From NCBI RefSeq assembly GCF_000428845.1, contig NZ_AUAS01000008.1, positions 62,001 to 126,000 of the forward strand: a stretch of 64,000 bases of DNA, written 5' to 3'. Positions 4,530 through 62,945 of the stretch are shown here, in pieces. The notes beneath the pieces were generated by a model that ran no database searches, had not been told where the DNA came from, and saw only the letters and a program-made list of their open reading frames with translations. The number at the start of each line of letters is the position of its first letter. Within the stretch, counting starts at the first letter, position 1. Made by a program: the position numbers and the translations under genes. This DNA is from Dyadobacter alkalitolerans DSM 23607. Lineage in GTDB: Bacteria > Bacteroidota > Bacteroidia > Cytophagales > Spirosomataceae.

Positions 4530-5810
4530 ATGACCATTGACCGCACCATCGCGCCCGAATTCAGAGTTGTAAATACTGTTAACCTGCCAGATCCGCAAAC
4601 TTATACACTCGATAACGGGACCTCTCTGCACGTAATCAATATCGGGGACCAGCCGGTGATCAGGCTTGAAGTTATTTTTGAAGCGGGAAATTGGTATGAA
4701 AGTGAAATTGGTGCGTCATTCTTTGCGATAAAAATGCTTTCGGAAGGAACCCGTTCGAAAGCATCTGCGGAAATCAGCGAGGCTTTTGACCGGATCGGCG
4801 CATTTACGGAAATGACGCATACTGCCGACCGTATAGGAATCGTCGTTTATGCACTTTCCCGGTTTTTACCGGAGGTTTTGCCCCTGGTAAGCGAGCTGAT
4901 CCATGATGCCGTTTTCCCAGAAAAGGAATTTGAAGACCTTCGGAATATCAATATTCAAAATCTGCGGGTTAATAAGGAGAAAAATGCTTACCTGGCAACG
5001 ACTGCATTCCGTGCAAAGCTGTTTGGCAGCAATCATCCTTATGGCCAAAGCCAGGAAGAAGAAACGATTTCTGCACTTTCCATTGAAACTGTTAAAGAGC
5101 ATTATCACAATTTCATTAAAAACGGAAAATTTACGGTCGTTTTAGCTGGTCAGGTTGGTGACGAGGATATAAAAGTGGTGAATGAGCAGCTTGGGAAAAG
5201 CCAGACTGAGGCATCGGTTACGCCATTAAAGAATTTTGAACAATCTCATTATATCGATACAGAAGTGCTTGTAGAGAAGCCTGAGAGCGTGCAGTCATCC
5301 ATCCGGATGGGAAGGAAGCTGTTCAACCGTCATCATGCTGATTATTTTAAAATGCTGGTAACCAATGAAATATTAGGTGGTTATTTCGGGTCCAGGTTAA
5401 TGAAGAACATAAGGGAAGAAAAAGGGTTGACCTATGGCATTTCATCACATTTGGTAACGTTGCGCAAGGAGGGTTACTATATGATCGGGACGGATGTGAA
5501 AAAGGAATTTACCCAACAAACCATTGACGAAATCAAGAAAGAGATATACAAATTGCAAACCGAGCCGGTGGGTGAGGAGGAATTGCAAACTGTAAAGAAT
5601 TTCATGGCAGGAGAATTCGCAGGATCTTTGAACACCGCGTTTGAGGTAGCAGATCGCCAGAAAATCCTGCTTCTCGACGGCTTGCCAACAGATTTCTTCA
5701 AACATTACATTGATCAGATCCACGCGACCACGAGCGAAGATGTGCTTGCAATGGCAACGCAGTATCTGAAACCTGAGGATATGCTTACTGTAATTGCCGG
5801 CGGAAAGTGA
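4530..5810 (+). CDS. M16B-family peptidase homologue lacking the HxxEH zinc motif
   Basis: A 426-residue, two-lobed pitrilysin/insulinase-family protein. Where active M16 enzymes have HFLEH, this one reads FFAIK (residues 64-68), so both zinc-binding histidines and the catalytic glutamate are absent. The second lobe keeps the RxxxGLxY signature (R295 and Y302) that forms the substrate-binding R/Y pair. In bacterial M16B heterodimers one subunit carries HxxEH and the partner carries the R/Y pair; this gene looks like the R/Y partner. No HxxEH subunit is encoded in the window. No signal peptide is visible, so it is probably cytoplasmic or periplasm-facing by an unrecognised route. It ends directly against the convergent photolyase stop codon (no bases between), which leaves no room for separate terminators. 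Confidence 0.85.
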   Translation: MTIDRTIAPEFRVVNTVNLPDPQTYTLDNGTSLHVINIGDQPVIRLEVIFEAGNWYESEIGASFFAIKMLSEGTRSKASAEISEAFDRIGAFTEMTHTADRIGIVVYALSRFLPEVLPLVSELIHDAVFPEKEFEDLRNINIQNLRVNKEKNAYLATTAFRAKLFGSNHPYGQSQEEETISALSIETVKEHYHNFIKNGKFTVVLAGQVGDEDIKVVNEQLGKSQTEASVTPLKNFEQSHYIDTEVLVEKPESVQSSIRMGRKLFNRHHADYFKMLVTNEILGGYFGSRLMKNIREEKGLTYGISSHLVTLRKEGYYMIGTDVKKEFTQQTIDEIKKEIYKLQTEPVGEEELQTVKNFMAGEFAGSLNTAFEVADRQKILLLDGLPTDFFKHYIDQIHATTSEDVLAMATQYLKPEDMLTVIAGGK

Positions 5811-7133
5811 TTAAGACTTGTCCAATGCCCTCTTATAGGCTTTGAGACATCTTTCCCGCGCCATTTTGTGATCTACCATGGGTTCCGGATATGCATCAGT
5901 GCCAAATTCGGGAACCCATTTTTTGATGTATTCTCCTTCCGGATCAAACTTTTTTGCCTGTGCTTCCGGGTTAAAAATTCGGAAATAAGGGGCTGCATCC
6001 GTGCCTGAGCCAACCGCCCATTGCCATCCGCCGTTGTTTGCTGCCAGGTCGTAATCCAGCAATTTTTCTGCGAAATATGCTTCTCCCAGGCGCCAGTTGA
6101 TGAGTAAATGTTTGGATAGAAAGCTCGCGGTAACCATCCTGACGCGGTTATGCATAAAGCCGATTGCATTCATCTGCCGCATACCTGCATCCACCAGCGG
6201 ATAACCGGTTTTGCCGTCGCACCATTTTTGGAACGCTTCTTTGTCATAGCCCCAGTTAATGTCATCATATGCAGCCCGGAACGCTTTGCCTTTTCCTACA
6301 TGCGGGAAATTATACAGAATTTGCTGATAGAATTCCCGCCAGATCAGTTCGTTGAGATACAGGTTACTATGTTCTTTGGCAAATCGCGCCAGCTGGCGAA
6401 TGCTCACTGTCCCAAATCTTAAATGTATGCCGATTCGGCTTGTGGCCTCCATGGCAGGAAAATCTCTTCCTTTTTCATAGTTTTCGAGCAATTCAGCCGG
6501 GATTTGGCTAGATGGGAAATCTGTATCCGTAGGCTGAAAGCCCATTTCTTCCAGCTTTGGAATTGCGTCGCCTTTCCATTGTAAAAAGTTTTTGAAATAT
6601 TTTTTATTAGGGTAAGAAGACAAATAAAAGTCATTACACTTCTGCCTCCACATGCGGCTATAAGGCGTGAAAACAGTGTATGGCGTATCCTGACCGGTAA
6701 GAATTTCTTTTTTTTCAAAAATCACCTGATCCTTGTAGGCTTTCAGCTGCGCATTTTTTGCTTGAAGAATTTTATTTACCGCCGTGTCCCGTTCAGTTGC
6801 ATAAGGCTCGTAATCGGTGTTGGTAATGGCCTCGGCAATGTCATATTGCTCACTTAATTCTTTCCAGACATCGGTTGGGTGACCGTAAAATACGATAATG
6901 TCAGAGCCCAGCTCACGCAATTGCTTTTGTAATTCCAAAACCGTCTGATGAATGAACATCAGGCGCTTATCTTGCTTATTTTCAAGATCATCCAGGATCG
7001 TTTTGTCAAATATAAATAAAGGGACGACAGGATATTCTCCCCGCAGGGCATAGTATAAACCCGCATTGTCGTGCAGCCTCAGGTCCCGGCGAAACCAAAA
7101 TAGTGTGATCTTTTCTTTCGTTTTTAAGCTCAT
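5811..7133 (-). CDS. phrB: Deoxyribodipyrimidine photo-lyase (cryptochrome/photolyase family)
   Basis: A 440-residue protein that would repair UV-induced cyclobutane pyrimidine dimers in a light-driven, FAD-dependent reaction. The N-terminal alpha/beta antenna domain starts with TLFWFRRDLRLHDN, the usual opening of class I photolyases. The C-terminal FAD-binding domain contains the conserved WREFYQQIL, GYPLVDAGMRQMNAIGFMHN and NNGGWQWAVGSGTDAAPYFR-type segments, including the tryptophans of the electron-transfer chain and the Asn near the flavin. Length is typical (430-480). The start at 7133 gives the expected N-terminus. It is convergent with the M16 gene and divergent from the DUF1080 gene, so it is probably a single-gene unit. 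Whether it is a CPD photolyase or a related cryptochrome-type enzyme cannot be decided by eye. Confidence 0.93.
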   Translation of the reverse strand: MSLKTKEKITLFWFRRDLRLHDNAGLYYALRGEYPVVPLFIFDKTILDDLENKQDKRLMFIHQTVLELQKQLRELGSDIIVFYGHPTDVWKELSEQYDIAEAITNTDYEPYATERDTAVNKILQAKNAQLKAYKDQVIFEKKEILTGQDTPYTVFTPYSRMWRQKCNDFYLSSYPNKKYFKNFLQWKGDAIPKLEEMGFQPTDTDFPSSQIPAELLENYEKGRDFPAMEATSRIGIHLRFGTVSIRQLARFAKEHSNLYLNELIWREFYQQILYNFPHVGKGKAFRAAYDDINWGYDKEAFQKWCDGKTGYPLVDAGMRQMNAIGFMHNRVRMVTASFLSKHLLINWRLGEAYFAEKLLDYDLAANNGGWQWAVGSGTDAAPYFRIFNPEAQAKKFDPEGEYIKKWVPEFGTDAYPEPMVDHKMARERCLKAYKRALDKS

Positions 7134-7264
7134 ATTTTACAATTGCAAGAATAGTATGCCAAACGGATAAAGGCTTGTTATAAATACGGAGGAAAGAATT
7201 TTTTGGATGCCCCGGATTTGTAACAATCGTCTGTTTACTTTGTGGTCTCATTAATCCTTGATCC

Positions 7265-8119
7265 ATGAAATTACAACTTACTCTACTTTTCAGCATACTG
7301 AGCTTCATCGCTTTCGGTCAGAAAAATGCCGATAAACAAGAATGGAAGCAACTGTTCAACGGCAAGAACCTCGACGGCTGGGACATTAAAATACGTGGAT
7401 ATGAACTGAACGACAACTACCTGAACACATTCCGTGTGGAAGATGGCAAAATGGTTGTGCGTTATGATAAGTATGACGACTTCAAGCAAAAATATGGTCA
7501 TATTTTCTATAAAGGGGACTTTTCATACTATCGTATTTCCGTGGAATATCGCTTCGTAGGCGAGCAGGCACCCAAAGGCGAAGGCTGGGCATGGCGCAAC
7601 AGCGGAATCATGGTACACGGCCAGCCCGCTGCAACGATGGGAAAAGACCAGGATTTTCCTGCTTCCATTGAAGTGCAATTGCTCGGTGGCAATGATAAAA
7701 CCCGCACGACCTGCAACCTTTGCACGCCAGGAACCAATGTGGTGATGGACGGAAAATTAATCACACAGCATTGCATAAATTCTAAATCACAAACTTACAA
7801 CGGTGATCAATGGGTGAAAGCAGAAGTGCTCGTACTAGGCGATTCACTGATCCAGCATTTTGCCAATGGAGAAATGGTTTTGGAATATAACAAACCACAA
7901 ATCGGTGGAGGCAATGTAAGCGGCCATGATCCATCGCTCATGATTGCCGGAAAGTTACTAGATCACGGTTCCATCTCACTACAAAGCGAAAGCCATCCTG
8001 TGGAATTCAGGAAGGTTGAAATCCTGGATTTGAAAGGCTGCATGGACCCGAAGGCGGTTAATTATAAGTCTTACTATGTGAAGGCGGATAATAGTAAGTG
8101 TAGTTATGGGAAGAAGTAG
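7265..8119 (+). CDS. Secreted DUF1080 (3-keto-disaccharide hydrolase/GH16-like fold) protein
   Basis: A 284-residue exported protein with an 18-residue signal peptide ending IAFGQ. The mature part starts with the DUF1080 signature LFNGKNLDGWDIK and continues with the jelly-roll pattern of that family (FRVEDGKMVVRY, GIMVHGQ, SIEVQLLGG, VEFRKVEILDL). DUF1080 proteins are concanavalin-like sugar-binding or 3-ketoglycoside-cleaving proteins in Bacteroidota and Planctomycetota. The C-terminal 25 residues resemble the Cys-containing tail GCxDPKAxNYxxxxxxDxxxCxY seen at the end of many Bacteroidota secreted proteins. The gene stands alone, followed by the palindromic repeat at 8125-8259. Its substrate is not identifiable from sequence. 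Confidence 0.87.
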   Translation: MKLQLTLLFSILSFIAFGQKNADKQEWKQLFNGKNLDGWDIKIRGYELNDNYLNTFRVEDGKMVVRYDKYDDFKQKYGHIFYKGDFSYYRISVEYRFVGEQAPKGEGWAWRNSGIMVHGQPAATMGKDQDFPASIEVQLLGGNDKTRTTCNLCTPGTNVVMDGKLITQHCINSKSQTYNGDQWVKAEVLVLGDSLIQHFANGEMVLEYNKPQIGGGNVSGHDPSLMIAGKLLDHGSISLQSESHPVEFRKVEILDLKGCMDPKAVNYKSYYVKADNSKCSYGKK

Positions 8120-8124
8120 GGTGT

Positions 8125-8259
8125 TGCCCCTGTCTGCCTGAGCCGTTAATAGCCCTGTCAGCCTGAGCGGAGACGAAGGCGCGTTACCCAGGAGTAGCGC
8201 GCCTTCGTCTCCGCTCAGGCTGACAGGGCTAGACTTTTGCGCTCAGGCTGACAGAGCTT
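8125..8259. repeat. Long intergenic palindrome with four half-sites (REP-like)
   Basis: The core is a perfect 33-bp inverted repeat (8151-8183 and 8198-8230) with a 14-nt spacer. A degenerate third half-site lies at 8125-8145 and a fourth at 8239-8259, so half-sites are nested outside the main stem. The core arm contains CTTCGTCTCCGCTCAGGCTGAC. A closely related palindrome occurs at 22140-22212 (shared CTTCGnCTCCGCTCAGnnTGACA). It fills the space between two convergent genes (DUF1080 and murA) and could act as a bidirectional transcription terminator or a mobile REP-type element. Confidence 0.9.
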
Positions 8260-8260
8260 A

Positions 8261-9568
8261 CTACAACCTAATAATCTCAGCCCCAATAGCATTCAACCTT
8301 CCATCAATATTCTGATAACCACGGTCGATCTGTTCGATGTTATCAATGATGCTGACGCCTTTTGCGGATAGCGCTGCGATGAGTAGCGCTACTCCGGCGC
8401 GTATATCGGGCGAAGTCATGCGGATGCCGCGGAGTTGTGTTTCCCGGTTATGTCCGATTACTGTTGCGCGGTGCGGGTCGCAGAGGATGATCTGTGCGCC
8501 CATTTCAATTAATTTATCTACGAAAAACAGACGGCTTTCAAACATCTTCTGATGGATGAGCACTGTTCCCTGTGCCTGTGTGGCTGTTACCAGGATAATG
8601 CTCAGCAAATCCGGCGTAAAACCTGGCCATGGTGCATCGGCAACAGACATGGTGGAGCCGTCCAGGAAGTTCTCAATGCGGTAATGTTCCTGTGCGGGAA
8701 TGAAAATATCGTCGCCCTGGAATTCCATTTTGATCCCAAGCCTTTGAAAAACATCGGGAATGATGCCCAATTGTGCGATCTGGCAGTCTTTGATCGTAAT
8801 TTCGGATTGTGTCATGGCTGCTAACCCAATAAAGCTGCCAATTTCAATCATATCAGGAAGCATTGTATGTTCCGTTCCGCTGAGCTGGCTAACGCCTTCT
8901 ACCACAAGCAGATTAGAAGCGATTCCTGAAATTTTGGCGCCCATTCTGTTCAGCATTTTACATAATTGCTGTAAATAAGGCTCGCAGGCTGCATTATAAA
9001 TTGTAGTAGTGCCTTCGGCCATCACAGCAGCCATCAAAACATTGGCTGTTCCGGTAACAGATGCTTCGTCCAGCAGCATGTAAGCGCCTTTCAGGTTAGT
9101 AGCATCAACTTTATAAAAACCACCATCTTCTTCGTCGTAACTGAATTGCGCACCTAATTTTTCAAAACCTAAAAAGTGCGTATCTAACCTGCGACGGCCT
9201 ATTTTATCGCCGCCCGGGCGCGGGATTCTGCCTTTGCGGAAACGTGCAAGCATAGGTCCAAGCAACATAACAGATCCACGCAAGGCAGCTGCTTTTTGCT
9301 TGTAAGATTCCGATTCCAGGTGATCCAGATTGATATCAGTTGCTTCAAAGCGAATCGATGACTCACTCAGTCTTGTTTGACGGACACCCAGGTCTGCAAG
9401 GAGATTGATAAGCTGATTTACATCCCGAATGTTAGGGATATTATGAATTGTTACCGGTTCTTTGGTCAAAAGCACTGCGCAAATAATCTGCAATGCTTCG
9501 TTTTTTGCGCCTTGGGGAACAATAGATCCTTTAAGCCGTCTATCTCCGGTTATTTTAAATGAAGCCAT
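8261..9568 (-). CDS. murA: UDP-N-acetylglucosamine 1-carboxyvinyltransferase MurA, Asp in place of catalytic Cys
   Basis: A 435-residue enzyme for the first committed step of peptidoglycan synthesis, transferring enolpyruvate from PEP to UDP-GlcNAc in the cytoplasm. The inside-out alpha/beta barrel is evident; conserved features include GAKNEALQI (residues 20-28, with the substrate-binding Lys-Asn), RGSVMLLGPMLAR, and the flexible loop PGGDKIGRR. The residue equivalent to Escherichia coli Cys115 is Asp121 (codon at 9206-9208). Cys-to-Asp enzymes are known to be active but insensitive to fosfomycin, which alkylates the Cys. DUF4290 is encoded 44 bp upstream in the same direction, an arrangement suggestive of co-transcription. 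Confidence 0.95.
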   Translation of the reverse strand: MASFKITGDRRLKGSIVPQGAKNEALQIICAVLLTKEPVTIHNIPNIRDVNQLINLLADLGVRQTRLSESSIRFEATDINLDHLESESYKQKAAALRGSVMLLGPMLARFRKGRIPRPGGDKIGRRRLDTHFLGFEKLGAQFSYDEEDGGFYKVDATNLKGAYMLLDEASVTGTANVLMAAVMAEGTTTIYNAACEPYLQQLCKMLNRMGAKISGIASNLLVVEGVSQLSGTEHTMLPDMIEIGSFIGLAAMTQSEITIKDCQIAQLGIIPDVFQRLGIKMEFQGDDIFIPAQEHYRIENFLDGSTMSVADAPWPGFTPDLLSIILVTATQAQGTVLIHQKMFESRLFFVDKLIEMGAQIILCDPHRATVIGHNRETQLRGIRMTSPDIRAGVALLIAALSAKGVSIIDNIEQIDRGYQNIDGRLNAIGAEIIRL

Positions 9569-9612
9569 ATTTGAATGTGGGGCAATTGACAGGATAAAAT
9601 GAAACCTGGATG

Positions 9613-10374
9613 TTAAATTCCAGGTTTTTTACGGTTATTCCGGTTGTTATTATTGTTGTTGTTACCACCGCTATTGTTCCGGCCCGAGAACTTGTTATTG
9701 GGCCTGTTTCGGTTGGAGTTGCCCTGGTTGTTGTTCCCTCCCTGCCGTTCCGCATTATGGCTAGACTGGGCTTTGAAGCCGCCGCCGCCGTTGCCCTGGC
9801 CTTGATGGCTGTTTCCGCGGTTGCGCTCCTGGCTACTATTATTGCGGTCTTTCGGTGCTGCCTCAATAGGCCCGTTAGCACGGATATAATCGATTTCTTC
9901 TTTTAGCTGACCTTTGCTAAGTTGTTCCAGCTGGCCCAACAAAACGTGATCTTCCGGATTGTCCTTATTCCAGGTGTTGAAAAAGGAGCGCATAAGGCGA
10001 AAAATGTATGAGACAAAAGCCAGTTTATCTTCTTTACTTTCCGTATTAATGGCTTTCTCAAGAAGCAGATCAATGTTACGGCCGTAATGGCGGTACATCA
10101 GATTTTGCTGGTTATAGCCAACGGTCAAAGGTTTTTTACCTAATGCTTCGGGTGAAGGCGGGGGAAATGGACTGTCAACGTCCAATTCAAATCCGGAAAT
10201 AATGTACAGGTCATCCCACAGTTTATTGGTGTAATCCTGGTTATCCCTCATGTTCGGATGGATCTGACGCATGAGCTCAACCAGAATGTGCGCATAAAGG
10301 TTGCGTTTTGTCCGATCTTCCATCTTAACGATGTGATCAGCAAGTTTTTGTACGTTACTACCGTATTCTTTCAA
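9613..10374 (-). CDS. DUF4290 protein with Asn/Gly/Arg-rich low-complexity tail
   Basis: A 253-residue cytoplasmic protein. Residues 1-180 form a helical DUF4290 domain, recognisable by EYGSNVQKLADHI, a HPNMRDNQDYTNKLWDDL-type segment and YGRNIDLLLEKA. The function of this Bacteroidota-specific family is not known. From about residue 185 the composition changes to Asn, Gly, Gln, Arg and Ser, with a run of seven Asn and a basic end (NRNNRKKPGI). Such tails are often disordered and can bind RNA, but that is inference. It lies directly upstream of murA on the same strand. The start at 10374 gives the conserved MKEYG opening. Confidence 0.85.
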   Translation of the reverse strand: MKEYGSNVQKLADHIVKMEDRTKRNLYAHILVELMRQIHPNMRDNQDYTNKLWDDLYIISGFELDVDSPFPPPSPEALGKKPLTVGYNQQNLMYRHYGRNIDLLLEKAINTESKEDKLAFVSYIFRLMRSFFNTWNKDNPEDHVLLGQLEQLSKGQLKEEIDYIRANGPIEAAPKDRNNSSQERNRGNSHQGQGNGGGGFKAQSSHNAERQGGNNNQGNSNRNRPNNKFSGRNNSGGNNNNNNNRNNRKKPGI

Positions 10375-54508: not shown

Positions 54509-56851
54509 TTACTGTGGTGTTAGGTCTGTTTTATTCCTATTCGGAGGCGTCACCCCTAATAATTTGTTTACAAAAAAGTCCCTCTTTTTCCTTCTTCCGT
54601 AAGTCCCGCCGTCGCTGTGGCCCATGCCCGGCACCACCAGCAATTCAAAATCTTTATTCGATTTGATCAATGCATCTGCCACGCGGTAAGTCGATTCCGG
54701 CGGCACATTCGTGTCCGCTTCGCCCACGATCAGAAGCAAGTCACCTTGCAACTTGGCGGCGTTGGTAATGTTGGATTGCTCGTCGTAATGCTTGCCGATC
54801 GGGTAACCCATCCATTGCTCATTCCACCATTGTTTGTCTACGCGGTTATCATGGCAACCGCATGCAGAAACTGCGGCATCGTAAAAACTTGGATGGAAAA
54901 GCAATGCGCCTAGTGAATTCTGACCGCCCGCCGAAGTGCCGTAAACACCCACCCGGCTCGAATCCACATAAGCATATTTCGAAGCCAATGCTTTCATCCA
55001 TGCAATCCGATCAGGAAAACCGGCATCAGCCAGATTTTTCCAAGCCATATCGTGGAAGGCTTTTGAACGGTTTGCTGTTCCCATGCCATCCATCTGCACA
55101 ACTATAAATCCAAGCTCGGCCATGCTCTGCATCTCGCCATAAGAGCGAAATGCTTTGGGCACAAACGAATCCTGCGGACCGGCGTAAATGTTCTCGATGA
55201 TGGGATATTTTTTGGTCGCATCGAATTTGCTCGGACGATACACAATGCCCCAAATGTCCGTTTGGCCGTCGCGTCCTTTGGCTTTAAAAATTTCGGGCAA
55301 CTGAAAGCCCAGTGAAAGATATTGCGAAATGTCAGCTTCTTCCAGCTTGGTCACTAATGAGCCGTCCGCCGTTTTCCGCAGCTCAGAAACCGGCGGGCCC
55401 ATCATCGTTGAGTATGTGTCAATGTAGTAAGTGCGGTCGGGCGAAAAAGTGAGCTGGTGCGTTGCCTTGGCATGATCCGTCAATTTTACGAGGCCGCTGC
55501 CGTCGAATTTAATTCTATAATAATGAATGTGATAAGGATCTTCATCCGCATTCATGCCACTCGCACGAAACCAGACTTCGCGTTTTTGCGTGTCAATGCT
55601 GTCAATGTCACGCACCACCCAATTGCCCTTTGTGATCGGGTTTTTGATTTTTCCCGAAAGCTCATCCACCAGATACAAATGCCGCCAGCCGTCTTTTTCC
55701 GAAGACCAGATAATTTCATGTTTTTCGGGTTGATAATGTGTAAATATCAGGTTTTGGTAAATAAATGTCTCCGTTTTTTCATCAATCACATTCCGCGTTT
55801 CGCCCGTTGCCGCATCCACATCAATCACTCGAAAACGCTGGTGCCCACGGTCCACTTTTTCGTAAGTAAAATGCGTGTTATCCGCATGCCGCCAACGAAT
55901 CACTGGTGCCTCGAAAAAGTCGATAATGTCCGATTTAACCTTGGTCAAAGCCTTTGTCTCGACATTCACCACGAACATTTCATAGGAAGTAAATTCATCG
56001 CCCGGCTGCGCATAGCCGCGTGTTTTCACTTCGCCCCGCGTTGTGTTGGGCAGGGAAGACATAATAATGCTGATCTGCCTTTCTTCATGCGGCGTAATGC
56101 GGTAAGCAACCAGATATTTTCCATCCGGCGACCAGCTGAGCTCGCCAAAGGGTTTCAGCGGATTTCCCTCGAATGTGAGCTGCTGAGCATCTTTTTGTTC
56201 TTTTTTAGTCAAATAAATGTTGCCGTTTCGGATGACTGCCGTTAGTTTTTTATCCGGCGAAGTGCTATCCGCCCGGAATGGTCTCCACCGACTTCTTGCC
56301 CGCGTCCAGCCTATTTCTTTGGGACGGTCAATGGGCAGTTTGTCGAGTTTTTTAGCGGTTTTGGTTTTTGTGTTAAATGCAAACCATTTGCCTGTTGTCT
56401 GCACAAAAAGCGTTTGGTTTTTTGGGTCTGAATAAATCTCGCTGAGCAATAATTTGTCAGCCGTTAATGTCGAATCGAGTGCTTTTGAAAGTGCAGTTGC
56501 GAGTTCTTTTTTGTCCAGCGGATTGGTCTTTTTACCCGTCGTTGGATCGACAAAAACGTATTCCGTCAGGCTGTCTTTCAGCACATTTCTGTAATAAAAA
56601 GAATGGCCGTCTGGCTGCCAGGTGGGCTGAATGGTTGCTTTCAAAACAGTCCCTCTGGTCAACGAATCCATGCGCTCCATATGCTTGTAGGAAGCAGTGA
56701 TTTCAGCCGCGTCGGGATGATAAGGGGGCAATGCAGACTGCTGTGCAATGCTTTTTTGAGAAAACATTGTGACCGTGGCGCCGACAAAAAAGGTCAGCAG
56801 ACGAAGCTTTTGACTGGTAAAACGCACCATACTAAGAGAGATTAACTTCAA
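54509..56851 (-). CDS. S9-family (prolyl oligopeptidase/DPP-IV type) serine peptidase
   Basis: A 780-residue exported peptidase. A hydrophobic signal segment near residues 15-36 ends SIAQQ. An N-terminal beta-propeller-like region is followed by an alpha/beta-hydrolase domain with nucleophile S640 in YGTSAGG, D713 in GEADTNVPP and H745 in GMGHSDGG, all well placed. The family cleaves peptide bonds after proline or removes Xaa-Pro dipeptides. The exact specificity is unknown. A later ATG at 56827 would also give a full signal peptide. The gene stands alone, 78 bp upstream of the ThuA/azurin gene on the same strand. Confidence 0.93.
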   Translation of the reverse strand: MKLISLSMVRFTSQKLRLLTFFVGATVTMFSQKSIAQQSALPPYHPDAAEITASYKHMERMDSLTRGTVLKATIQPTWQPDGHSFYYRNVLKDSLTEYVFVDPTTGKKTNPLDKKELATALSKALDSTLTADKLLLSEIYSDPKNQTLFVQTTGKWFAFNTKTKTAKKLDKLPIDRPKEIGWTRARSRWRPFRADSTSPDKKLTAVIRNGNIYLTKKEQKDAQQLTFEGNPLKPFGELSWSPDGKYLVAYRITPHEERQISIIMSSLPNTTRGEVKTRGYAQPGDEFTSYEMFVVNVETKALTKVKSDIIDFFEAPVIRWRHADNTHFTYEKVDRGHQRFRVIDVDAATGETRNVIDEKTETFIYQNLIFTHYQPEKHEIIWSSEKDGWRHLYLVDELSGKIKNPITKGNWVVRDIDSIDTQKREVWFRASGMNADEDPYHIHYYRIKFDGSGLVKLTDHAKATHQLTFSPDRTYYIDTYSTMMGPPVSELRKTADGSLVTKLEEADISQYLSLGFQLPEIFKAKGRDGQTDIWGIVYRPSKFDATKKYPIIENIYAGPQDSFVPKAFRSYGEMQSMAELGFIVVQMDGMGTANRSKAFHDMAWKNLADAGFPDRIAWMKALASKYAYVDSSRVGVYGTSAGGQNSLGALLFHPSFYDAAVSACGCHDNRVDKQWWNEQWMGYPIGKHYDEQSNITNAAKLQGDLLLIVGEADTNVPPESTYRVADALIKSNKDFELLVVPGMGHSDGGTYGRRKKRDFFVNKLLGVTPPNRNKTDLTPQ

Positions 56852-57031: not shown

Positions 57032-58195
57032 TTAATAGATCCCAAATGCTAAGGCAGCCATTACCGCAACCACCAGCCAGCCCATTGCGAGCAGAATGCG
57101 TGAATGTATATACGTGCCCATAAGCCTTGATTTCCCACTTGCAATGAGCAGAATAGCCAGCGCAACAGGCAGCACAAAGCCATTTAATGTGCCCACAAAG
57201 ACCAGCACTTTCACAGGTTTACCAATAATCGCAAACACAGCCGTAGAAATGGTGATGAAAATAATGGTTAGCGCCGCATGATATTTTTCCAGCAAAGCAT
57301 GAAACGAGCGAACAAACGAAATGGAAGTGTAAGCCGCCCCGACCACGGAAGTGATAGCCGCACTCCAAATCACCAAACCGAAAATCTGCCTTCCCGCTGA
57401 TCCGGCGGCTTGTTCGAAAATGGATGCCGTTGGGTTTTCAGGATTAATGGTCGCGCCAGCCATGATGACCCCCAATGATGCAAGGAATAGTAAATAACGA
57501 ATGACGGTCGTGATCAAAATGCCCGTTGCCGCGCTCTGATTCACTTGCGGCAGTGAAGCCTCACCGCTGATGCCGCTGTCCAGCAGCCGGTGCGCGCCCG
57601 CAAATGAAATGTATCCACCAACCGTCCCGCCTACCAACGTAACCGCTGCCATCGCATCAAATTTTTCTGGTAAAATGGTGTGGTGCAATGCGGAAATCAG
57701 TGGCGGGTGCGAGGTGAAGGCAATGTATAGGATCAAAATGATCATGAGCACTCCCAAAACGCGACTGAAAACATCCATAGCTTTTCCTGCTTCTTTAAAG
57801 AGAAAAATCCCGATCGCCATGCCCGCACTCAGCACCGCTCCGACTTTCACATTCATGCCCGTTATGGCCTCCAAGCCCAATCCGGCCCCAGCCACATTAC
57901 CAATGTTGAATGCAAAACCACCAATCACGATCAGAGAAGCCAGCATATAACCCAAGCCGGGAAACAGCGCATTGGCCAGTTCCTGAGCGCGCTTGCCCGA
58001 AACAGTGATGATTTGCCAAATGTTAAATTGCGCACAAAGGTCAATGAGGACGGTAAGCAGAATAATGAAGCCGAAACTCGTAGCCAGTTGCTGGGTAAAA
58101 ACGGTCGTCTGCGTCAGGAAACCCGGGCCGACTGCCGAGGTGGCCATCAGGAATGCTGCGCCGAGTAATGCTTTGGAGGATTTCGTTTTTGCCAT
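57032..58195 (-). CDS. Nramp-fold transporter lacking metal-binding motifs
   Basis: A 387-residue inner-membrane protein with about 11 hydrophobic segments and the overall Nramp pattern (GPGFLTQ in the first helix). The DPGN motif of true Nramp proteins is TQQL here, so the metal-ligand Asp and Asn are missing. The TM6 MPHN motif is replaced by GGYI in a GGTVGGYI segment. It is therefore unlikely to carry divalent metal ions in the canonical way. The gene starts 10 bp after the 5-oxoprolinase stop, and YcsG-type Nramp-like proteins are known beside oxoprolinase genes in other bacteria, so 5-oxoproline uptake is a reasonable inference. The ATG at 58195 avoids an overlap of the longer frame with the upstream gene. 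Confidence 0.85.
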   Translation of the reverse strand: MAKTKSSKALLGAAFLMATSAVGPGFLTQTTVFTQQLATSFGFIILLTVLIDLCAQFNIWQIITVSGKRAQELANALFPGLGYMLASLIVIGGFAFNIGNVAGAGLGLEAITGMNVKVGAVLSAGMAIGIFLFKEAGKAMDVFSRVLGVLMIILILYIAFTSHPPLISALHHTILPEKFDAMAAVTLVGGTVGGYISFAGAHRLLDSGISGEASLPQVNQSAATGILITTVIRYLLFLASLGVIMAGATINPENPTASIFEQAAGSAGRQIFGLVIWSAAITSVVGAAYTSISFVRSFHALLEKYHAALTIIFITISTAVFAIIGKPVKVLVFVGTLNGFVLPVALAILLIASGKSRLMGTYIHSRILLAMGWLVVAVMAALAFGIY

Positions 58196-58205
58196 TTTTA
58201 AAGTT

Positions 58206-61200
58206 TTAACCAAATCCACCGCCGCCAGGTGTTTCGATAACCAAGATATCGCCTTTTTCAACTTCCAGACTGCTTATGCCGGGCAAAAGCGAAGTTTCAC
58301 CATTACTAATTAATGTGTGAACGCCGCATTGTCCATCCTCGCCGCCATTCAGTCCATAGGGTGCGTAATTTCTATGTTGTGCCAAAAGTGTTACTTGCAA
58401 AGGTTTCAGAAATTCAATTTTTCGTACAATGCCATCGCCGCCCTTAAATTTTCCCTTTCCACCTGAATCTTTCCGGATGCCAAATTCCAGCAGCCGAACC
58501 GGATATTTGCGTTCCAGCTGCTCGGGATCGGTAATGCGCGTGTTGGTCATATGCTGGTGCACAGCTGCGCGGCCATGGCAGCCCGGACCAGCGCCTGTCC
58601 CGCCTCCTATGGTTTCGTAGTAGCCAAATTGCTCGTCGCCAAAAAGAAAATTGTTCATCGTCCCCTGGCTGCACGCCGCCAACCCAAACGCTTTGAGCAA
58701 AGTATCCACCAACCGCTGGCTTACTTCCGTGTTGCCACCGACCACGGGCGGACATTCAAATGGATCGTCAGAAAAGTCGGGATGCAGAAAGCTGTTTTCG
58801 GGCAGGACAATGTCCACATTTTTCATCAGGCCATCATTCAGTGGGATTTCTTTGTTTACCAAAAGCCTTAACACATATAAAATCGCGCTATACAAGATTG
58901 AAATGTTAGCATTCAGATTGTTAGGATGCACTTTTGAAGTGCCTGTGAAGTCAAAAACCTGTTTTTCGGGAGTGATTGAGACCGCAACCTGAATGCGATG
59001 ACCGTCATCCAGAAGCTCTGTTGCCTCAAAAGTTTTGCCATGAAGAGGTGTTAATGCTGTTTCCAGCTGCGCAACTGCATTTTCTTTCAATAACCGCATG
59101 TATTTCTGCACCGTTTCCAATCCGTGCAAGTCCACCAACTTCAACATTTGCTCGCTGCCTTTCCTTAGTGCCGATAATGCGGCGATGATGTCGGCCTCAT
59201 TGGACAGAAAATGCCGGGTAGGGTAGCGGCCTTCGGTGAACAAGTTGCGAATGGAATCCCATTGAAATACATTGTTTTTGATCAAATATTGAGGCAAAAT
59301 AATGACGCCTTCCTCAGCCAGACAAGTTGCGTCCGGTGGCATAGAGCCAGGCGTTTTACCGCCGACTTCCGCATGATGCGCACGGTTGATGACATAGCCA
59401 ATACAAATGTTGTCATTCGTGAAAATGCCTGAAATCAATGTAATATCAGGCAAATGTGAGCCGCCATATTTCGGATGATTTGTAATAATAACATCCCCCG
59501 GCCCAATCTCAATCGCCTCCTTCACCAACCTCCCGCAAATGCCCATGCTGCCCAAATGCACCGGAATATGCTGCGCATTCACCAGCAATTCACCATCCTG
59601 ATCCAGCAACGCACACGAAAAATCAAGCCGTTCTTTCACATTTACCGAGAATGCAGTCCGCTGCAACTGAACGCCCATTTCATCCGCAACGGATTTGAAA
59701 CGGTTGGTAAAAAGCTGCAACGCAACTTCCTCACTTTGCTTTTCAGCTATAATGTTGGTTTCCGAAGTTTTGAAAGCAATGGCGTCCTTGCTGTTCTGAA
59801 TGATAAGTTTCCAGCCATTTGGGATGTAAGCGGTGGAAGTGTTGTTCAAAAGAATTGCCGGGCCAACACTTTGGTCACCTGCATTGAGCTGATCCCATTC
59901 GTAGAGCTGTGCAGCATTATAGGAGTCAGTTTTTGTAAAATTAGGTTGTTTTGAGTCGATTTCATTAATTTCAAATAAAGGATTAACGCTTCTCAATGCA
60001 TTTGCTAAAACTCCTTCTTTAATGATCGTTTCTGGTTCAATCGGAGTCGCTTTCTCCTGAACCATTAACTTCAAACTTTCCAGTTCAACCGTCAGATTCG
60101 CCGGATAATAGCCGAACTGCGCAGTGTAAAGTTTCTCAAAAGCATTCAAGGTTTCAGCGCCTTCATAACCCACTTCAATTGTGTTCTCTTGGCCTGTAAA
60201 ACGCAGATAAACGTAGCAAAAAGCGGTTTCAAACGCACTAACCCCTTGATCTTGCAGTTTTTCAGCGCCTTCTTGCAAAAGCTCGTTTTCCCAAAGCTGA
60301 ATTTTATCTTCCGATTCACGCCAGGGAAGCAGGATTTGCTTGGAAACAATGGTGCTGATCAGCGCCTCGCCCATGCCTACTGCACTGAAAAGTCCGGCGT
60401 CGTAAGGAATGATAACGGTTTGAATGTCCAGCAAATCGGCTAATTGGCAACTATGCAAACCGCCAGCTCCGCCGAAAGTGATGAGGGCAAAATCAGCTGG
60501 ATTAATGCCTTTCTCTACGGAGATTTTACGGATAGCATCGGCCATTTTTTCGTTGGCAATCCTTTCGAGGCCAGTAAGCAATTCCGGAAATGCCAGCAAA
60601 TTCCCAGTTCGCGCTTCAATGCTTTTCTGCAAAGCCGTCAGCGCCGCCAGTGCAGCATCCGTCCGGACTGGAATGCCAAATTTGGAAGCATCCAGTTTTC
60701 CCAAAAGCAAATTCACATCCGTAATCGTCAGCGGCCCGCCCGCTCCATAGCAAGCCGGCCCCGGCGAAGCCCCCGCACTTTCCGGCCCAACTTGCAGCGA
60801 AAACCCATCAAACCAGCAAATAGAACCGCCGCCAGCCGCCACCGTTTCAATCGCCAATGTTGGGTTATGAAATTCAATGCCGTCAATTTCGGTAATGTAT
60901 TTCAGCTCCGGACGCCCATCAATCAACGCCGTATCCGTACTCGTTCCGCCCATGTCGAAGGTGATGGCTTTGGGAAATCCGAGCCGTTTTCCAGCATTAG
61001 CCGCTGCCACCATGCCACCGGCTGGGCCGCTTAGTAAGCTGTCTTTTGCCCGAAAGCCGTTTACTTCCGAAAGGCTTCCCGTGCTGGTCATGACTTTCAG
61101 GCTGCCTTCGCCCAAGGAGCTTTTAATGTTTGTTAAGTATAGATCTAAAACCGGATCGAGATAAGCATTAACAACCGCAGTTTGCGTTCGTCGCAGATAA

Positions 61201-61994
61201 TGTGAGAAAGGGAAAAGCTTGGAGGAAACGGAAATGTATTTGGTTCCGTTTTCTCTGAATGCCTTTTCTACCGAAAGCTCGTGTGCGTTGTTTTGATAGG
61301 AGTGAAGCAGGGAAACGGCTATGGAATCTGCGTTTTTTGCAGAAGCTAATGTTGATAATTCCTCCGCATTCAAGTTTCTAATCACATTTCCCGAAGCGTC
61401 CAAACGTTGATCAATTTCTAAAACTTCGGAATAAAGCAATCTCGGTTCCGGAATGTTGAGCTGAAAAAGGGAAGGGCGTTGTTGGTTGCCAATGTAAAGC
61501 AAGTCTTTGAAACCTTTGGTAACGACTAAAAGCGTTTTGGCTCCTTTTCTTTCGAGTAATGCGTTTGTGCCTTTTGTGGTTCCGAGACGCATTTCGAGCG
61601 GTGGCAATGTGTCGCTAAGCTTCGTTTTGGTTAATAGTCTTGCAGCCAAAACAGGCGCTTCTTCGCCGCTGAAAATTTCGAAATCTGAATTTTGAGAAAA
61701 TGGGAAGTTATCTTCCAGTCTGAATGTTTGATTGGATGAATCAAAAGAAATGACTTTGCTAGTCAAACCATTTGCCAGCGAGCGCAATGTGTAACCTGTC
61801 AGCAAGTGCGCATCAAATGGCCATGAAGCTTCATATTGAAAAGCGTTATCAGCAACCTTACCAATAATCCGCCCACGTACGCAGCCCGAGCTCAAAACTT
61901 TCAGCCTGGTTTTATTCCCCTCCAAATCAATAGCCAAGCAATCCGTAAAAGTCCCACCCGTATCAACCCAAATCTTCCAAAAAGAAGCATTCAT
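58206..61994 (-). CDS. 5-oxoprolinase/hydantoinase (HyuA-HyuB fusion)
   Basis: A 1262-residue ATP-dependent enzyme. The HyuA half (about residues 1-690) starts with the ATPase signature WVDTGGTFTDC, with LGTTKGTNALLERKG, AITFDMGGTSTDTAL and FGGAGGLHSCQLADLL further on. The HyuB half (about 740-1262) contains RLDFSCALLD, NHPKYGGSHLPDI, RAHHAEVGGKTPGSMP, GGTGAGPGCHGRAAV and a Gly-rich end IETPGGGGFG. This fused layout is that of full-length 5-oxoprolinases, which hydrolyse 5-oxoproline to glutamate. Hydantoinase function is an alternative. The ATG at 61994 is preferred over 62036 because it leads directly into the conserved ATPase domain. Confidence 0.9.
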   Translation of the reverse strand: MNASFWKIWVDTGGTFTDCLAIDLEGNKTRLKVLSSGCVRGRIIGKVADNAFQYEASWPFDAHLLTGYTLRSLANGLTSKVISFDSSNQTFRLEDNFPFSQNSDFEIFSGEEAPVLAARLLTKTKLSDTLPPLEMRLGTTKGTNALLERKGAKTLLVVTKGFKDLLYIGNQQRPSLFQLNIPEPRLLYSEVLEIDQRLDASGNVIRNLNAEELSTLASAKNADSIAVSLLHSYQNNAHELSVEKAFRENGTKYISVSSKLFPFSHYLRRTQTAVVNAYLDPVLDLYLTNIKSSLGEGSLKVMTSTGSLSEVNGFRAKDSLLSGPAGGMVAAANAGKRLGFPKAITFDMGGTSTDTALIDGRPELKYITEIDGIEFHNPTLAIETVAAGGGSICWFDGFSLQVGPESAGASPGPACYGAGGPLTITDVNLLLGKLDASKFGIPVRTDAALAALTALQKSIEARTGNLLAFPELLTGLERIANEKMADAIRKISVEKGINPADFALITFGGAGGLHSCQLADLLDIQTVIIPYDAGLFSAVGMGEALISTIVSKQILLPWRESEDKIQLWENELLQEGAEKLQDQGVSAFETAFCYVYLRFTGQENTIEVGYEGAETLNAFEKLYTAQFGYYPANLTVELESLKLMVQEKATPIEPETIIKEGVLANALRSVNPLFEINEIDSKQPNFTKTDSYNAAQLYEWDQLNAGDQSVGPAILLNNTSTAYIPNGWKLIIQNSKDAIAFKTSETNIIAEKQSEEVALQLFTNRFKSVADEMGVQLQRTAFSVNVKERLDFSCALLDQDGELLVNAQHIPVHLGSMGICGRLVKEAIEIGPGDVIITNHPKYGGSHLPDITLISGIFTNDNICIGYVINRAHHAEVGGKTPGSMPPDATCLAEEGVIILPQYLIKNNVFQWDSIRNLFTEGRYPTRHFLSNEADIIAALSALRKGSEQMLKLVDLHGLETVQKYMRLLKENAVAQLETALTPLHGKTFEATELLDDGHRIQVAVSITPEKQVFDFTGTSKVHPNNLNANISILYSAILYVLRLLVNKEIPLNDGLMKNVDIVLPENSFLHPDFSDDPFECPPVVGGNTEVSQRLVDTLLKAFGLAACSQGTMNNFLFGDEQFGYYETIGGGTGAGPGCHGRAAVHQHMTNTRITDPEQLERKYPVRLLEFGIRKDSGGKGKFKGGDGIVRKIEFLKPLQVTLLAQHRNYAPYGLNGGEDGQCGVHTLISNGETSLLPGISSLEVEKGDILVIETPGGGGFG

Positions 61995-62066
61995 TTTTTC
62001 CCAAGAGACAAACCAAAAAGTGATGTAAACCTCCAAAATAGTTGCTATTGGGAATAAAACCTACCC

Positions 62067-62945
62067 TCAACCAACCCGCTCCCGAAAATCTCTATGAAAC
62101 TCCCGCGGTGACTTCCCCATGATCTTCTTAAAAACCCGATTAAAATTGGTCACATTATCAAAACCAGTCTGGTAACTCACATCGGAAAAGCTGTCGAACA
62201 TGCCGGAAATGATGATTTTGCAGGCTTCGTTTACGCGGACTTCGTTGAGGAAGCTGATGAAGGTTTTGTCTGTGTGTTTTTTGAAATAGCGGCAGAAAGC
62301 TTGGGGCGTGAGGTTGGAGATTTCGGAGATCTCGGCGAGGGAAATGTGCCTTTTGTAATTGCTGACCAGATATTGAAAAATCTGGTCCATTCGGATTCCT
62401 TCGACTTCGGAAATAATTTGCTCACTGTTGTTGGTCGCCAGCGGTTTGATGTCGCGGATGGTGGAAAACAAATGCAGCAACGAAATGAATGATGCTACGC
62501 GTAGACTGTCTTTGTTTTGCTTTAATTCTGAAATGGTTTTTTGGACAATTGGTAATGCTGATTCCGGGATTTGGTAACCATTGTGCAGGCCGTCTACAAA
62601 TTTTTTGATGCTCGCCATTTCGGGCAAGCTTAGAATGTTCTGGTGGAGTTGGGTAGGATTGAAGAAAATGGAGACGGAATGGACCTGCTTTTTTTCTTCG
62701 GGATTGAAATAGGCTTCGTCGTTTTTGAAAATATGCGATTGATTGGCGCCGATAATGTAGACTTCGCCGGATTCAAATCTTTGCATATAATTTCCGGCGA
62801 TGAGGATGCCCGAACCTTCCACGACCCATTCAATCTGAACTTCCCGGTGCCGGTGCAAATGGTTGTAGTAATGCGGCAAAATGTCCTCCTGCACCACAAT
62901 GGTGTGCTCTTTGGAAACGGGAATGGTGAATTGAACGACTTTCAT
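62067..62945 (-). CDS. AraC-family transcriptional regulator
   Basis: A 292-residue regulator. The N-terminal cupin-like ligand-binding region (about 1-130; LPHYYNHLHRHREVQIEWV, GNYMQRFESGEVYIIGAN) is followed by two helix-turn-helix motifs at the C-terminus (SLAEISEISNLTPQAFCRYFKKHT and FSDVSYQTGFDNVTNFNRVFKK), then GKSPREFHRD, the AraC signature. The ATG at 62945 gives the usual MKVVQF-type start; the longer frame from 63029 has no family support. It is encoded 72 bp upstream of the oxoprolinase on the same strand and probably controls it, with the transporter. Confidence 0.93.
   Translation of the reverse strand: MKVVQFTIPVSKEHTIVVQEDILPHYYNHLHRHREVQIEWVVEGSGILIAGNYMQRFESGEVYIIGANQSHIFKNDEAYFNPEEKKQVHSVSIFFNPTQLHQNILSLPEMASIKKFVDGLHNGYQIPESALPIVQKTISELKQNKDSLRVASFISLLHLFSTIRDIKPLATNNSEQIISEVEGIRMDQIFQYLVSNYKRHISLAEISEISNLTPQAFCRYFKKHTDKTFISFLNEVRVNEACKIIISGMFDSFSDVSYQTGFDNVTNFNRVFKKIMGKSPREFHRDFRERVG

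Follow-up and report, generated by a model that had tools for sequence, protein, structure and literature searches.

The Nramp-family protein encoded at positions 57032-58195 (minus strand) of the window, a stretch of 64,000 nucleotides from Dyadobacter alkalitolerans DSM 23607, is very probably a secondary importer of 5-oxo-L-proline (pyroglutamate) with the Nramp/LeuT fold, working with the OPLAH-type 5-oxoprolinase encoded just upstream. Judging from sequence and gene context, the unit most likely constitutes an operon for pyroglutamate use. The YcsG/PxpT/MumT clade, to which this carrier belongs, is already known and is normally found with PxpABC; in Dyadobacter, the partner is an OPLAH-type enzyme instead. 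The importer reading is based on the fold, the clade, the loss of metal ligands and proton-path residues, the intact motifs of the enzyme, the conserved pairing of carrier and enzyme, and the interchange of partners. A preliminary description of this DNA had proposed that an Nramp-fold protein transports 5-oxoproline or a related organic substrate, and this is the best-supported reading given the YcsG/PxpT clade, two non-homologous 5-oxoprolinase partners and the loss of all ligands. 5-Oxoproline is thus the presumed substrate, and inward the presumed direction. Pyroglutamate would enter the cell through the carrier, the ATP-dependent OPLAH-type enzyme would open its ring to give glutamate, and glutamate would feed central carbon and nitrogen metabolism.

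Three genes follow one another on the minus strand, namely an AraC-type gene (62067-62945), a hydantoinase/oxoprolinase gene of 3.8 kb (58206-61994) and the Nramp-family gene. At its full extent the latter reading frame covers 57032-58261, but a TTG start at 58261 would run into the preceding gene, so the ATG at 58195 is the likely start, giving a carrier of 387 aa. The OPLAH-type gene, which carries both hydantoinase A and B parts, has its last base at 58206, and exactly 10 bases separate it from this ATG, so that the 10-bp distance from a full-length 5-oxoprolinase gene reported in the preliminary description is confirmed. Downstream of the carrier and on the same strand lies a gene for a DPP-IV-like S9 peptidase (54509-56851), which adjoins the carrier gene also in a close relative (L035), although this arrangement is not generally conserved.

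The carrier belongs to PF01566 (71.5 bits, with the curated Pfam cut-off at 29.8). Its best fold match is 9a52_A, which represents Bacillus subtilis YcsG as an integrative model rather than an experimentally determined structure; identity is 56% over 382 columns and the TM-score 0.97. The next matches are EleNRMT and DraNramp, at about 18% identity, followed by APC amino-acid carriers such as BasC, AdiC and ApcT. A phmmer search of solved structures with the single carrier protein gave no match, and matches came only with a profile. In the tree, the window protein, the proteins of ycsG operons and MumT form one clade apart from the other PF01566 groups, with support of 100/100. The GPGF and GGYI motifs of the window protein recur in an operon of the ycsF-ycsG-ycsI-kipI-kipA type (L143), and the pathway is the same; Corynebacterium glutamicum PxpT is reported to be 50% identical to YcsG (PMC13274462). 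The YcsG/PxpT systems have PxpABC as partner, whereas the window carrier is accompanied by a single-chain enzyme of the OPLAH type, and the GntR regulator PxpR of C. glutamicum is replaced here by an AraC gene upstream. Acinetobacter baumannii MumT, published as a manganese importer linked to urea metabolism, belongs to the same clade, has the same motifs and is 45% identical to the window protein, but its partner genes differ: its operon contains LysR, PxpA, D-Glu cyclase, PxpBC and biotin carboxylase homologues, in agreement with the published mum operon.

Canonical Nramp/MntH proteins such as DraNramp and ScaDMT share the Pfam family and the fold (TM-score about 0.8 with DraNramp), but identity to them is about 16-18%, and the carrier has other residues in place of all the metal ligands and of those lining the proton path. 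The preliminary description had read the TM1 motif DPGN as TQQL. Two kinds of alignment, one with the MntH of the same genome and one by profile match to solved Nramps, rule this out: the register was wrong, the equivalent of DPGN is GPGF (58118-58129, minus strand; D56G and N59F in DraNramp numbering) and TQQL lies farther along TM1. The assignment of GGYI to the MPHN position of TM6 agrees with the alignments, ATVMPHN becoming GTVGGYI, and the TM6 break motif GGTVGGY (57611-57631, minus strand) comprises A227G, M230G and H232Y. The metal-binding Gln378 of TM10 corresponds to a glycine (57191-57193, minus strand). The loss of canonical metal coordination claimed earlier proved to be more complete than stated, since all metal ligands are gone in the 111 relatives aligned: D56 is replaced by G, N59 by F, A227 by G, M230 by G and H232 by Y in 111/111 clade members, all of which carry GPGF and GTVGGYI, and Q378 is G in 110/111. 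The residues H201 and R202 are invariant. The acidic pair of TM3 and the histidines of TM6, which form the proton path, are replaced as well (D131N in 110/111, E134N, H232Y and H237G). The Mg transporters of the NRMT type, represented by EleNRMT, have the same fold (TM-score 0.84) and lack the metal-binding Met as the carrier does, but they retain the Asp of TM1 and the Gln of TM10, both of which are Gly in the window protein. We reject Mg2+ transport of this type on account of the missing Asp; of the DxxG-TxxA/T site, both the Asp and the Thr positions are Gly. An AlphaFold model of the carrier (mean pLDDT 88.8, pTM 0.86) shows a break in TM1 at residues 20-22, immediately ahead of GPGF, and one in TM6 within GGTVGGY. 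In the LeuT-type layout with broken TM1 and TM6, amino-acid carriers of the superfamily hold the carboxylate of the substrate through backbone amides. By analogy, the glycine-rich breaks at GPGF and GGTVGGY may hold the carboxylate of 5-oxoproline in the same way.

These replacements bear on a dispute about the clade, whose members carry the database annotation "divalent metal transporter". The earlier caution that the substrate of YcsG-type proteins is less clear was justified, as both YcsG and MumT have been published as manganese importers (PMC10448178, PMC5050338). The carrier might thus import Mn or another divalent metal, as claimed for YcsG (MntG) and MumT, and supply it to metal-dependent oxoprolinases. 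Its place in PF01566 agrees with such a role, as do a metal site that is found in the hydantoinase/oxoprolinase class and conserved in the window enzyme, and the published ICP-MS and growth phenotypes. Overexpression of YcsG raised cellular Mn, and attempts to obtain a triple mntH mntA ycsG mutant failed (PMC10448178); deletion of mumT lowered cellular Mn in A. baumannii (PMC5050338), and one of the two papers reports that the gene contributes to fitness during pneumonia in mice. However, no metal-binding side chain of the solved Nramps is left in 111/111 clade members, D131, E134, H232 and H237 are lost too, and in DraNramp the single exchange D56G is enough to abolish Mn transport (PMC13060092). 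Moreover, the genome already encodes a canonical MntH, and the 2023 study of YcsG relied on overexpression and reported an unstable ycsG disruptant (PMC10448178). A further paper (PMC13274462) describes PxpT as a protein that C. glutamicum needs to grow on 5-oxoproline, with pxpT alone sufficient for complementation, and deletion of ycsG as stopping the use of 5-oxoproline as nitrogen source in B. subtilis. In the consulted passages of the three papers on YcsG, MumT and PxpT (PMC10448178, PMC5050338, PMC13274462) the loss of the ligand residues is not considered. The same literature passages contain growth-based evidence for PxpT, and we found in them no direct 5-oxoproline uptake by a member of the clade. 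Taken together, the sequence and context evidence speaks against Mn2+ import as the main role of the clade, and we regard metal import by the window carrier as unlikely.

The presumed partner of the carrier is encoded at 58206-61994 on the minus strand, with an ATG at 61994 and a product of 1262 aa. This single chain contains both halves of the eukaryotic-type, fused A+B enzyme (PF05378, PF01968, PF02538 with 569.6 bits, and PF19278), and both ATP-site motifs, DTGGTFTD and DMGGTSTD, are intact. We assign it to the OPLAH type, a class that can be difficult to separate from hydantoinases by sequence: the closest solved enzyme is N-methylhydantoinase (367.6 bits), caprolactamase also being matched, and the closest NCBIfam model is caprolactamase. 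No solved OPLAH was matched in the PDB set, and two stretches of the A. denitrificans plasmid pALIDE01 yielded no characterised bacterial OPLAH for comparison. Alignment to the caprolactamase CapB (6yra_B), with the ligands named in PMC8453981, places the Asp-His-Asp-His metal tetrad at D805, H861, D864 and H887 (numbering from 62036), within 59376-59624 on the minus strand. The genome contains no PF02538 gene other than this one, and PxpA (PF03746) has no match there, so the common bacterial 5-oxoprolinase PxpABC is absent as judged by PxpA. A gene of about 830-880 aa with a PIG-L deacetylase domain lies just upstream of the OPLAH gene in several genera (L218-L222, L210) and is missing from that place in the window.

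The association between carrier and enzyme was examined in related genomes. Among 105 loci of the clade, checked with Pfam, at least one pxp gene is present in 76 and OPLAH in 10, with both in none. All 10 OPLAH loci belong to Dyadobacter. When the phylogeny is set against the gene neighbourhood, as the preliminary description had suggested, their carriers form a single clade nested among members linked to PxpABC. In a sample of this genus the OPLAH gene is immediately upstream of the carrier in 15/15 cases, with 5-229 bp between the matched ends, and the two members without the carrier also lack OPLAH (2/2). Across 151 genomes of the family, the carrier occurs in 57, of which 28 have OPLAH, 28 have PxpA, one has neither and none has both; these genomes are not independent, because among YcsG-type carriers the change to OPLAH is confined to a single clade of the tree. 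Carrier and enzyme genes are not adjacent in Runella-like genomes with OPLAH, nor in some PxpA-bearing genera of the family. To our knowledge, 5-oxoproline is the one substrate common to both enzyme types, PxpABC and the eukaryotic-type enzyme, which according to PMC13274462 have no sequence similarity. The carrier follows the shared reaction rather than the protein, and most simply it would carry the substrate of that reaction.

This also bears on whether the carrier takes up some other organic compound (a different lactam, for example, or a hydantoin or pyroglutamyl peptide) that matches the true substrate of the enzyme. The enzyme class is broad, and the matches to N-methylhydantoinase and caprolactamase agree with this reading. 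Nevertheless, carriers of this clade are also found with PxpABC, whose sequence is unrelated and for which 5-oxoproline is the shared known substrate, and we consider a different organic substrate quite improbable. Joint movement of 5-oxoproline and a metal ion, whether complexed or coupled, would account for both kinds of published phenotype (Mn and growth on 5-oxoproline), but it is purely speculative, the central site lacks side chains that bind metal, and we hold it to be highly improbable.

The family contains a second kind of carrier without the TM1 Asp. Most of its genomes with OPLAH but without the YcsG type have another PF01566 protein, with the motifs GPG[ST] and VPYN and only 18-21% identity to the window protein. 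This VPYN type corresponds to an outgroup of Slc11 within PF01566; it likewise has Asp56 replaced by Gly and adjoins OPLAH or PxpABC, but unlike the carrier of the window it keeps the TM10 Gln and VPYN. In four of the loci retrieved for inspection it is directly beside OPLAH, at distances of 40 to about 110 bp, 9 bp, or with a 4-bp overlap, and the genome search found it within 5 kb of OPLAH in 31/45 genomes. OPLAH loci with this neighbour, from other genera of the family in genomes without the YcsG type, are L208, L211, L212 and L217-L224; the VPYN-type gene of L219 lies at 5292-6464. The 92 genomes with OPLAH comprise 28 with the YcsG type, 45 with the VPYN type, 19 with neither and none with both, against 13.7 expected, a count limited by the relatedness of the genomes; by genus (3 YcsG-type and 11 VPYN-type of 22 OPLAH genera) the chance of such exclusion is about 0.11 and not significant. 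In another family of the order, relatives of the VPYN type lie 33-45 bp from PxpA in 8/8 genomes. One locus examined there is an Nramp-PxpA-PxpB-PxpC run, and a VPYN-type gene immediately ahead of PxpA, PxpB and PxpC was noted in L061 (7596-11147), L062 and related small genomes (about 1.1-1.6 Mb). All four pairings of the two carriers with the two enzymes therefore occur. In an AU test, a tree joining the YcsG type to the VPYN type linked to OPLAH was not rejected (p 0.154), so that a separate origin of the two is not proven. Our search of the literature on the non-NRMT Nramp outgroup found no assigned function. We give about even chances to the proposal that PF01566 contains at least two deeply separated Asp-less branches, YcsG and the VPYN outgroup, both carrying 5-oxoproline and interchangeable beside two unrelated 5-oxoprolinases.

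If members of the YcsG/PxpT/MumT clade carry pyroglutamate, their annotations as metal transporters and their interpretation as Mn importers need revision. The swaps of enzyme and carrier constitute a test that is independent of any single laboratory phenotype and bear on the live dispute about manganese. They also suggest a substrate for the Nramp outgroup, which is used in evolutionary studies and has no known function. If both Asp-less branches carry 5-oxoproline, the Nramp outgroup would be an organic-acid branch, and YcsG and MumT would affect Mn only indirectly. The Nramp fold would have switched between metal and small organic-acid substrates, as has happened among other APC-superfamily carriers.

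Regulation of the unit may involve the AraC-family protein encoded at 62067-62945 (minus strand; 292 aa, HTH_18 60.6 bits). The preliminary description placed an AraC regulator directly upstream; the AraC-type gene does lie 72 bp upstream of the oxoprolinase gene, but the linkage is weaker than this implied, a homologue being found upstream in 7/10 Dyadobacter loci at 42-1008 bp. Support for a dedicated regulator goes no further than this partial synteny. The 72-bp gap (61995-62066, minus strand) may be the promoter region, where a search for a Bacteroidota promoter gave just a weak -7-like match.

Members of the clade also occur in 93 Klebsiella plasmid records. At one such locus (L177) the clade member is found with genes for GntR, PxpA, a hydro-lyase, the urea amidolyase family and biotin carboxylase, with silver resistance genes nearby. 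Additionally, the genome of D. alkalitolerans encodes a further Asp-less Nramp paralogue (L065, C9, positions 6412-9803), with GPSK in TM1 and SIVG in TM6; it is directly followed by epimerase-like and DHDPS-like genes, again a context of organic substrates.
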